Shown here: positions 1 to 36,879 of the stretch, one piece after another
Position numbering within the stretch: the first letter of the stretch is position 1
Layout of the letters: every line of letters starts with the position of its first letter
Translations under genes and position numbers: made by a program
From: a virus
Strand: one strand, 5' to 3'
IMG/VR virus record: IMGVR_UViG_3300032236_000270
Span: 1-36,879 of that record
Length of the DNA stretch: 36,879 nt
The notes under the pieces: generated by a model
Told to the model about the DNA's origin: nothing
The model's input: only the letters and a program-made list of their open reading frames with translations
The model's database searches: none

Positions 1-123
1 AGGCCGTTGTGTTGTTGCACCAACCTACGGCCTTCTGTTTTTCTGGCTTCCAGTAAGAAGGTTTAAGTACATAAGAAGTCAGCGTGTAAATCCGAGTATT
101 CGCTTAGGGCGAGCTTAAAGAGG
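1..123. repeat. Terminal direct repeat, left copy (circular-assembly overlap)
   Basis: These 123 bases are identical to the last 123 bases of the window (36757-36879). The repeat begins inside one stem of the structured RNA and ends inside its body, with no gene or site boundary at either edge. This is what an assembler leaves when a circular or circularly permuted molecule is opened at an arbitrary point. A biological terminal repeat is possible but less likely. Confidence 0.95.
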
Positions 124-410
124 ATTGAAGGTGCGGTGTCCGAGGCTAACAGGCGAGAGCCTGAATCGTAGGACTAACCAAGTGGCTAGAAATAGCGATA
201 CACCGTCAGGGTACGAGAAACACCCAAGACTAGGAGGCACAAGCCGCAAGTCGAGGACGGAAAAAAGCATACCAGCACTACATCTTAAGGCTAGTTTGTT
301 AAGAATCCCTGAGCTAGGGATTTCTTGCGCCCAACGACAAACAAACTTAGGCTAGGGTTGTTAAGACAAGCGAGGAACAATGCAGCTAAAAAATCAATAA
401 GAAGCCGAGC
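1..410 (+). ncRNA. Large structured noncoding RNA, body and 3' part
   Basis: Continuation of the transcript that starts near 36697 across the circle junction. Stems I can pair by eye: 2-7 with 27-32 (extendable to 9 bp with the preceding bases), inner 11-14 with 21-24; 43-46 with 50-53; 100-103 with 109-112; 132-139 with 200-208 (8 bp, one bulge) enclosing two hairpins, 150-154/159-163 closed by GAGA and 185-188/193-196 closed by GAAA, both GNRA tetraloops; 209-212 with 222-225; 228-231 with 249-252 plus 236-238/243-245; 291-300 with 340-350 stacked on 301-310/316-326 (about 20 bp together); 358-362 with 376-380. Bases 45-50 are complementary to 401-406, a possible long-range contact. The one open frame here (125-355) has no recognisable protein character. 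It is not recognisable as tmRNA, RNase P RNA, a tRNA or a self-splicing intron. Large phage RNAs such as GOLLD and ROOL are the classes to compare. The 3' end is not defined; 380-420 is a guess. Confidence 0.7.
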
Positions 411-452
411 CTTTTATGTTGTAAATAATATAAAAATAATTAAAACACACTA

Positions 453-647
453 ATGAAATACAAAATAAATGATATAGTCTATGCAAAAAATAGCGATAGA
501 CCTTTATTGGTCACAGGATTTCTGCAGCAGTCTGATTGTGTAAGACTTTATTTAATGAATGAAGAGGGAGAAGAATATCCTTATTTTGAAAAGAACATAA
601 CAGATTCTAAACCTTATTTATTCGCTTCTGAAGAGGAGGAGTTATGA
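453..647 (+). CDS. Hypothetical small protein, first gene of early operon
   Basis: 64 residues, function not recognised. The N-terminus reads KINDIVYAKNSDRPLLVTGF, a pattern of short beta strands compatible with a small SH3-like barrel. The C-terminus is a run of glutamates (SEEEEL). The start has no Shine-Dalgarno; the leader is rich in A and T. Its stop overlaps the next start by four bases (ATGA), so the two are probably translationally coupled. It is the first coding gene after the structured RNA and may lie on the same transcript. Confidence 0.75.
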   Translation: MKYKINDIVYAKNSDRPLLVTGFLQQSDCVRLYLMNEEGEEYPYFEKNITDSKPYLFASEEEEL

Positions 648-33990: not shown

Positions 33991-34208
33991 AGCCTTACAT
34001 CTTTAGTCAAGCGTAAAAGGCAAACAAACCGTACGGACAATTAAAACCCCTAGCGTTCGCATAACTATTTAAAGAAACTGTGTAACCTTTTACCTGTTCT
34101 GTCCGTCTTGTAAGACATTACTTAATGTAAGACCTATTTATGTTGGCGTGTTAAGGCCACTTTTATATAAATTTTTAGAGCTGGAGTAGATCAATCGCGA
34201 TAACACCA

Positions 34209-34239
34209 CCCCACTACCCTCGCAACCCCCTCCCCCCCC
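34209..34239 (-). other. G-quadruplex-forming tract (minus strand)
   Basis: On the plus strand the C-runs are 34209-34212, 34217-34219, 34226-34230 and 34232-34239. The complementary G-runs (8, 5, 3, 4) with loops of 1, 6 and 4 bases meet the usual rule for a G-quadruplex. This is exceptional in an AT-rich genome. It lies in the control region, between the terminase start and the repeats. Confidence 0.55.
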
Positions 34240-34261
34240 AAGTAATAGCGAGGAATAAAAG

Positions 34262-34279
34262 TAATTAGGAACCTAATTA
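34262..34279. promoter_or_regulatory. Perfect palindrome, candidate operator
   Basis: TAATTAGG-AA-CCTAATTA: eight-base arms with a two-base centre, a form typical of a dimeric repressor or activator site. It is the strongest symmetric element in the control region. Phage candidates that could bind it are the helix-turn-helix proteins at 2235 and 6979. Confidence 0.5.
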
Positions 34280-34507
34280 GATAAACTTATAGGCTAAAGT
34301 AGGTATTCTTATGGCCTTAATAGTGTCTTAATCTCTTATATTTAGTCTTATTATAACTTAAATTAAGAATTATTAAGTCTTTCTTGCGTGCGTAGTGTTC
34401 TTTTTAAGTGGAAGTTAAACTATTGTTTCAACCTAATCACTACCTTACTAATCAGTCACACTCTCTTTAATATCGGGAAGGCTAGTTTAATTACTTAAAA
34501 AGAAAGT

Positions 34508-34527
34508 TTAAAATAAGTTAAAATAAG
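34508..34527. repeat. Tandem decamer TTAAAATAAG x2
   Basis: Two exact adjacent copies of TTAAAATAAG about 90 bases before the ArdC start. They lie one helical turn apart, so a protein bound to both would face the same side of the DNA. Confidence 0.5.
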
Positions 34528-34568
34528 CTTGCGTAGTGATTAAAAACGTTACTTAATTAACTTCGTTG

Positions 34569-34585
34569 AGAGTGAAAACCACTCT
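34569..34585 (+). promoter_or_regulatory. Leader hairpin with AAAAC loop before ArdC gene
   Basis: AGAGTG and CACTCT form a six-base stem around the loop AAAAC, 28 bases before the ATG of the ArdC gene, followed by an A-rich leader. The same loop and nearly the same distance occur before the 35572 gene. Confidence 0.45.
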
Positions 34586-34613
34586 TAATAATAAACAAAT
34601 AAATATAAATAAC

Positions 34614-35486
34614 ATGAAAAACGAAGTCACAAAAAAAGACGTTTACCAAATTGTTACTGAACGTATTATCGAACAGCTTAATCAAGGAGTAATACCTTGG
34701 CATAAGTCTTGGCGGACAGATTCAACGGCGTTAAGCAACTTTGTAAGCAAAAAGGCTTATAAAGGCATGAATAGTATTTTATTGAATTGCGGTCAGTTTA
34801 AGGCTCCTTATTTCTTAACATATAAGCAAGCAAAGGAATTAGGCGGAAACGTAAAAGCCGGCGAAAAAGGTTTACCAATTATATTCTGGTCTTTTGTTGA
34901 ATCTAAGACTGAAACAGATTTTAACGGAAAGCCTAAGCAAATTGGTTTTCTACGCTATTACACTGTATTTAATATTGAGCAAACCGAGGGGATTAAATGG
35001 AGCATGCCAGAATTACCAGAGAATAAATTTAATCCTATTGAGCAAGCGGAAACAGTTGCAAGCAATATGCCCGAAGCTCCAAAGGTTTTATTTGGTGGAA
35101 ATCGTGCTTTTTATAGTCCGGCTTTAGACTTTGTGCAAATGCCGTTAAAACAAAGCTTTGAAACTAATGAGGCTTATTATTCTGTATTATTCCATGAGCT
35201 TGCTCATTCGACCGGTCATTCAAAACGCTTGGATCGTGGCGTAGAGAAAAACGCTGGCTTTGGTAGCGAGTCTTATAGTAAGGAAGAGTTAATTGCTGAA
35301 ATGACAAGTGCTTTCGTTTGCTCTTCAATTGGTTTAGAGTCTAGGATTCCAGACAATGCTTCTTATATTTCAAGTTGGATTAAAGCTTTAAAGGGAGATT
35401 CTAAGCTAGTAGTCTTAGCTAGTGGTAAAGCTCAAAAGGCCGCAGACTGGATTCTAGGAAATTTAGAAACAGAAAGTGTAGAATAG
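34614..35486 (+). CDS. ardC: ArdC-family antirestriction protein
   Basis: 290 residues from ATG 34614, chosen over the longer frame (34566) because the ArdC N-domain begins here and the A-rich leader precedes it. Residues about 5-125 form the single-strand DNA-binding ArdC N domain (DVYQIVTERIIEQLNQGVIP, then WHKSWR, AYKGMNSILL and YFLTYKQAKELGGNVKAGEK). Residues 150-270 are a zincin-type metallopeptidase: HELAH (194-198), second H202, then ELIAEMTSAF with E229 as a metal-ligand candidate. Known ArdC proteins protect incoming DNA from restriction. Transcribed away from the late genes, it may be expressed early after entry. Confidence 0.87.
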   Translation: MKNEVTKKDVYQIVTERIIEQLNQGVIPWHKSWRTDSTALSNFVSKKAYKGMNSILLNCGQFKAPYFLTYKQAKELGGNVKAGEKGLPIIFWSFVESKTETDFNGKPKQIGFLRYYTVFNIEQTEGIKWSMPELPENKFNPIEQAETVASNMPEAPKVLFGGNRAFYSPALDFVQMPLKQSFETNEAYYSVLFHELAHSTGHSKRLDRGVEKNAGFGSESYSKEELIAEMTSAFVCSSIGLESRIPDNASYISSWIKALKGDSKLVVLASGKAQKAADWILGNLETESVE

Positions 35487-36681: not shown

Positions 36682-36690
36682 TGATATAAT
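36682..36690 (+). promoter_or_regulatory. Extended -10 promoter of the structured RNA
   Basis: TGATATAAT matches an extended -10 element with a perfect TATAAT at 36685-36690. A TTGACT at 36667-36672 is only 12 bases upstream, too near for a normal -35, so the extended -10 is probably used alone. Predicted transcript start about 36697, in front of the first RNA hairpin. Confidence 0.7.
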
Positions 36691-36696
36691 CAACTC

Positions 36697-36879
36697 GTTT
36701 AGTGCGGTAGTGCAATACCACAAAAGTCAATTTCTGAGGGAGTAAAATCTCTCTGGAGGCCGTTGTGTTGTTGCACCAACCTACGGCCTTCTGTTTTTCT
36801 GGCTTCCAGTAAGAAGGTTTAAGTACATAAGAAGTCAGCGTGTAAATCCGAGTATTCGCTTAGGGCGAGCTTAAAGAGG
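36697..36879 (+). ncRNA. Large structured noncoding RNA, 5' part
   Basis: The transcript starts about seven bases after TATAAT. The first hairpin uses GGTA/TACC around GTGCAA (near 36702-36720). The second is GGGAG and CTCTC around TAAAAT (about 36738-36753). The third stem begins at 36755 and continues through the junction into 2-7/27-32. 36757 onward is the same sequence as 1-123, so the molecule continues at position 124. See the entry at 1-410 for the rest of the fold. Confidence 0.65.
36757..36879. repeat. Terminal direct repeat, right copy
   Basis: Identical to 1-123. It marks the circular overlap of the assembly; unique sequence ends at 36756. Confidence 0.95.

Follow-up and report, generated by a model that had tools for sequence, protein, structure and literature searches.

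A new class of structured RNA at the head of the early genes in a group of phages, and the apparent exchange of its core

Genome and position of the RNA

The window analysed here is the whole 36,879-nt IMG/VR virus record IMGVR_UViG_3300032236_000270, and coordinates given without a contig name are positions in it. It belongs to a tailed phage, with recognisable genes for terminase, major head protein, an Erf-like annealing protein, exonuclease and a DnaB-like helicase; the nearest named phage is C75C1, with a terminase identity of just 38%. The record carries an exact terminal repeat of 123 nt (1-123 = 36757-36879); the genome is therefore a circle of 36,756 nt, and the RNA reported here crosses its junction. 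Encoded on the + strand, the RNA extends across the junction from the last positions of the record and stands at the start of the early (recombination/replication) gene block, upstream of early genes that start at 453 (Table 1). Its size is about 435 nt, from a start presumed from the promoter box at about 36697 (there is no experimental start site) to roughly 375, the 3' end being unmapped. A sequence-only reading of this DNA had proposed a structured non-coding RNA across the circle junction, and the terminal repeat, the covariation and the broken reading frame described below bear it out.

The same reading had placed an extended -10 element in front of the RNA. This box, TGATATAAT, is real, and it is kept as TGnTATnAT in five relatives, at an equal distance from the conserved leader, despite the divergence of the surrounding DNA. 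No good -35 element was found for it, and it is missing from the list of a generic promoter scan.

Table 1. Coordinates of the RNA and of related features in the window and in related phage contigs (L numbers)
Feature	Position	Strand	Support or remark
Extended -10 box TGATATAAT	36682..36690	+	Sequence; TGnTATnAT in five relatives
5' leader of RNA	36697..36756	+	Hairpins a, b re-formed with other sequence in relatives
Hairpin a	36706-36709/36716-36719	+	In 5' leader
Conserved ACAAAAGT	In 5' leader	+	
Hairpin b	36737-36742/36749-36754	+	Window pairing read by eye
Hairpin c	2-7/27-32, inner 12-14/21-23, within 1..42	+	Stem pairing kept
U tract after hairpin c	38-42	+	
Helix d	43-50/75-82, within 43..82	+	8 pairs in 6/6 sequences, two-sided changes
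Covarying core, model R1	82..264	+	43 pairs, 16 with two-sided changes
R1 helices, first part	90-93/122-125, 94-96/114-116, 99-103/109-113, 138-141/171-174, 150-154/159-163	+	
R1 helices, second part	185-188/193-196 (outer 182-184/201-203), 204-207/256-259, 209-212/222-225, 228-231/249-252, 236-238/243-245	+	
3' domain of RNA	265..375	+	Conserved hairpin; 3' end unmapped
Hairpin AATCCCT-GAGCT-AGGGATT	304-310/316-322	+	Sequence kept in 6/6, no covariation
Open reading frame, judged non-gene	125..355	+	Frameshifts, no codon-position bias, no Pfam match
Type-2 RNA (R2)	L146:4306-4452	-	Promoter-like box and leader hairpin present
Type-2 RNA (R2)	L148:4394-4540	-	
Type-2 RNA (R2)	L231:600-752	+	
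Type-2 RNA (R2)	L227:2192-2333	+	
Third-type non-coding region	L194:8122-8905	-	Conserved, HDV-like ribozyme at 3' end
Third-type non-coding region	L200:8255-9172	-	Conserved, HDV-like ribozyme at 3' end
Third-type non-coding region	L210:344-1090	-	Conserved, HDV-like ribozyme at 3' end

Structure, coding status and distribution of the type-1 RNA

Automatic alignment of the 5' part was poor, and its paired strands were picked by hand. In the relatives, the three hairpins (a, b and c) and helix d consist of other sequences that pair again, and their frequent G-U pairs speak for an RNA, not a DNA element. By eye, hairpin b reads AGGGAG/CTCTCT in the window and is a bulged TTGGGG...CTCCTCAA stem in L088, and the stem of hairpin c differs in sequence between the window, L088 and the other members yet stays paired. 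With the U tract that follows it, hairpin c resembles a large-loop terminator; we read it here as part of the RNA.

The structure of the 183-nt core was drawn by hand from compensatory changes in six aligned sequences. Over its 43 pairs 98.4% of the cells are paired, none of 500 shuffles equalled it, and the 16 pairs with two-sided changes compare with 0-2 when the partners are slid. Since the structure was derived from the same sequences, the percentage paired is favoured and the two-sided counts are the stronger measure; six related sequences, moreover, amount to few independent events. Two-sided changes are not confined to comparisons of the window with the five L-members; the L-members also differ in this way among themselves. 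The GAAA hairpin (185-196) shows them in all four stem pairs (variants GCUA/UAGC, AUGC/GCAU and ACGC/GCGU) around an invariant loop, and pair 206/257 occurs as three pair types. This hairpin and the GAGA hairpin (150-163), both predicted beforehand, lie exactly where they had been placed and are conserved; the 8-bp stem said to close around them is unsupported, and we dropped it for helix 138-141/171-174, which covaries and shares some of its bases. Nearly the same helices as in the hand structure come out of RNAalifold and of the minimum-energy fold of the window alone; the exception is the outer GTG/CAC stem near 182-203, for which both choose another register. The R1 model scores its own members at 208-233 bits. 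Folding energy is just modestly below that of shuffles (z -1.95 for the window core, down to -3.7 for local windows), and the proof of structure is therefore comparative. Covariation in related phages, named in advance as the support to look for, is strong, and we regard it as virtually certain that this is a conserved structured RNA. Also invariant in the core is UAGGAGG (231-237), the complement of the 16S rRNA 3' end, with no start codon at a fitting distance; this could be chance or a ribosome contact.

In the 3' domain, stacked stems had been drawn at 291-350. Their inner hairpin (304-322) is present and conserved, without covariation, and no comparative support was found for the outer stem (294-300/340-346). 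Direct repeats noticed by eye in this domain of the window were discarded, as a repeat finder did not recover them. A highly conserved motif, TCACGAAGTGANAACCACTAGAAACT, sits 3' of the RNA in L008, L011, L088, L089 and L090, and was initially taken for a piece of it. The motif occurs also at L134:12838 (-) and L135:6048 (-), on the other strand and between late genes; as it has this different location in L134 and L135 and the window lacks it, it was left out of the RNA.

The frame at 125-355 could be taken for a small protein gene, as it is open in the window, L088 and L090, with similar translations. It is, however, frameshifted in the other three of the six members (L008, L011 and L089) by a one-base loop insertion, the substitutions relative to the window number 10-12, 3-5 and 7-10 at codon positions 1, 2 and 3, with no third-position excess, and the frame has no Pfam match. 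On these grounds we rejected the gene and give it next to no chance; a frame conserved with synonymous changes, which the sequence-only reading had said would refute the RNA, is not what the relatives contain.

Six type-1 members are known, all phage contigs (the window, L088, L089, L090, L011 and L008/L091). An Erf-based search retrieved phages with the same early genes, L008 and L011 among them carrying the RNA, and the same five contigs from IMG/VR came up with each of two patterns, which were drawn from separate conserved blocks in the RNA. Beyond these five, the IMG/VR pattern searches gave chance matches such as L092; a pattern search of genome contigs gave 27 matches, none supported by the model; an R1 search of 56 related viral records returned the known members alone; and BLASTN of the RNAs against 50,697 phage records gave no real match. 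The RNA core of the window is 77-79% identical to those of L088 and L008, and identity to L090 is 74% over a longer, 317-nt stretch; for comparison, most genes of the window are 65-68% identical to those of its relatives, and part of the terminase gene 74%. This places the core among the best-conserved stretches of DNA common to the window and its relatives.

No Rfam 15 family reached its gathering score anywhere in the window, and at E-values up to 10 window 1-460 and the full L088 RNA gave only chance-level matches; with gathering and relaxed thresholds, the window, L088, L134, L194 and L227 yielded nothing usable for the type-1 RNA. GOLLD, ROOL, OLE, HEARO and raiA are among the families whose covariance models did not match it. 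As far as Rfam 15 goes, the earlier judgement that no known class accommodates the RNA stands, and we describe the RNA as a new class of phage structured RNA, within the broad kind of large structured phage RNAs. The suggested kinship with GOLLD or ROOL found no support, there being no Rfam match and no tRNA or tmRNA genes in the window.

Other occupants of the slot

In L227 the promoter, leader and hairpin c are those of type 1 (78-89% identity), as is the 3' flank (81-88%), and the approximately 380 nt between leader and 3' flank give no R1 match. The fold of this replacement segment is better than that of shuffles (z -3.4), and a related non-coding region exists in L231, L146 and L148. The model built from these four sequences, R2, contains six two-sided pairs against none in slid controls. 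It finds its own members, whose scores are not independent because those sequences built the model, and none of the type-1 phages; outside its members its matches are weak only (L172 and three fragments), and L172 remains uncertain as a distant type-2 member (L172:1180-1324 (-), 22.6 bits). R2 is a second new structured RNA, covarying and recurring in other phages of the group. In L227, the leader segment AAAAGTTC is exactly complementary to GAACTTTT, located just within the core of that phage; the minimum-energy fold pairs the two, which suggests a single folded molecule comprising leader and core. Very probably, the core is exchangeable, a different structured RNA standing under the same promoter, leader and 3' flank.

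The distribution of the type-1 RNA is also patchy. L012/L134 is close to the L-members (Erf 94% and head protein 96% identical to L088, terminase 91% to L089), and a search of L012 for R1 with filters off gave no credible match. Its slot holds an HTH_36 protein and an ORF with a CxxC...HH...CxxCH pattern, HNH-like by eye and without a Pfam match; L008 retains, downstream of the RNA, just the last codons of the HNH-like ORF. Judging from this close relative, phages of the group can do without an RNA in this slot, which speaks for an accessory role.

At a comparable position, a sister clade (L194/L188/L198, L200/L193 and L210) carries a non-coding region of about 700 nt, which lies on the early strand and stops immediately ahead of an early gene. 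The HDV-like ribozyme at its 3' end matches Rfam RF02682 below the gathering score (27.8 bits, E 0.006), and a descriptor recovered the P1-P4 arrangement with the catalytic C; the descriptor was written after L194 had been seen and is thus not blind, and it gave one apparently chance match (L017). P2 changes compensatorily between L194 and L200, and P1 starts with C instead of the usual G, so that activity is not a given. In the window and its type-1 relatives no descriptor match to an HDV-like ribozyme (P1-P4 double pseudoknot, catalytic C in J4/2) was found. Given the exchanged core, the protein genes in the slot and the third RNA type, the locus behaves as a cassette.

Proposed role and competing explanations

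We propose that an RNA of about 430 nt is transcribed from a promoter of its own where the early gene block starts. It folds into two parts, the 5' one comprising hairpins a, b and c with helix d and the other being the multi-helix core. The comparisons show this structure, the lack of coding, the exchanged core and the patchy distribution: the locus is a cassette in which promoter and leader stay, whereas the core can give way to a structured RNA unrelated to it, or protein genes can take the slot. Its product may be an accessory RNA that acts early and in trans, binding a host factor and neutralising or redirecting it for counter-defence or host takeover, and the core types may track different hosts or defences. 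Early expression is inferred from the promoter box and gene order, trans action from dispensability and core exchange, and counter-defence or takeover from the slot, the exchange and a nearby ArdC gene. A new early trans-acting accessory RNA, encoded by a cassette with a swappable core, is the best explanation overall, to which we give slightly less than an even chance; against it stand the absence of transcript data and the small number of type-1 members. The functional part of this explanation, counter-defence or host takeover, is held at least as tentatively, and no target, complementary sequence or protein partner of the RNA has been identified. It is likewise possible, short of probable, that a fixed early promoter and leader carry unrelated large structured RNA cores that are swapped between related phages like anti-defence genes, the one slot then accommodating at least two unrelated RNA families and probably three.

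With its 3' end unmapped and no terminator found before the first early gene, the RNA could instead be an mRNA leader. A cis-acting 5' leader of the early operon, i.e. an attenuator, a put-like processive antitermination RNA (which would carry polymerase past terminators further down) or a large riboswitch, would have the terminator-like hairpin c and U tract as its decision point, and it would suit both the position of the RNA, which immediately precedes the early genes and shares their strand, and the presence of a GC-rich hairpin with a U tract about 100 nt past the promoter in the window, L227 and type-2 L146. However, the core lies downstream of hairpin c and so cannot control it, the slot takes unrelated RNAs or protein genes with the early genes unchanged, no Rfam riboswitch matches the RNA, and the type-2 RNAs of L146 and L148 seem by eye to have a 3' terminator of their own (unlisted by the scan). 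We consider such a leader unlikely.

As the hairpins are conserved and the non-coding stretch that holds them precedes the replication genes, it might also be a DNA element, either a replication origin or a set of protein-binding hairpins. We give this very little credence: hairpin b, helix d and other parts contain G-U pairs, there are GNRA loops, the conserved promoter box has the right orientation, and the core is completely exchanged in L227. An ornate structural RNA of the GOLLD/ROOL kind, forming homo-oligomers, would be in keeping with a large, phage-encoded, GNRA-capped molecule whose many conserved unpaired stretches could make tertiary or intermolecular contacts. Against this, no match to GOLLD, ROOL or any other family appeared even at relaxed E-values, and the genome has no tRNA genes, while a location near tRNA islands is frequent, though not obligatory, for GOLLD and ROOL (PMC12286853). 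Without oligomer data, we find this explanation quite improbable.

To our knowledge, few large phage RNAs have been described, and the functions of GOLLD and ROOL are still open. These two are RNA-only nanocages (PMC12286853); the window RNA resembles them as a large structured phage RNA with GNRA loops and an unknown role, and differs in its smaller size, in lacking a covariance-model match and tRNAs in its genome, and in its early-operon slot with exchangeable cores. The phage RNA sensed by CBASS, cabRNA, is also structured, but derives from terminase genes (PMC10686824), whereas the window RNA is a separate non-coding locus. The HDV-like theta ribozymes of phages (PMC10879173) have their likeness in the fold that ends the third type; none was found at the window RNA, which is not beside a tRNA. 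As for the inferred counter-defence role of the accessory RNA, it is supported merely by the precedent of phage RNAs such as the Racrs, RNA anti-CRISPRs that serve as counter-defence (PMC10651486). Both are phage non-coding RNAs acting on host immunity, a role merely proposed for the window RNA; unlike it, Racrs are small mimics of CRISPR repeats, and the Rfam CRISPR-repeat families did not match window 1-460 even at E 10. We found no papers on exchangeable RNA cores, within an incomplete literature coverage that yielded no dedicated phage-RNA survey.

A covariation-tested structure, a fixed slot, natural absences and natural core exchange offer ready comparisons for the study of RNA function. 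If the exchange reflects an arms race, phages would swap structured RNAs as they swap anti-defence proteins, and, if this is true, non-coding RNAs would constitute a swappable class of counter-host weapons.

The ArdC-type anti-restriction gene of the window (34566-35486) encodes an ArdcN and a zincin domain. Between it and a small terminase-side gene lies the largest ORF-free stretch (33991-34556; 566 nt, AT-rich), in which no RNA family match was found. In the place of ArdC, L090 has a DUF932 gene.
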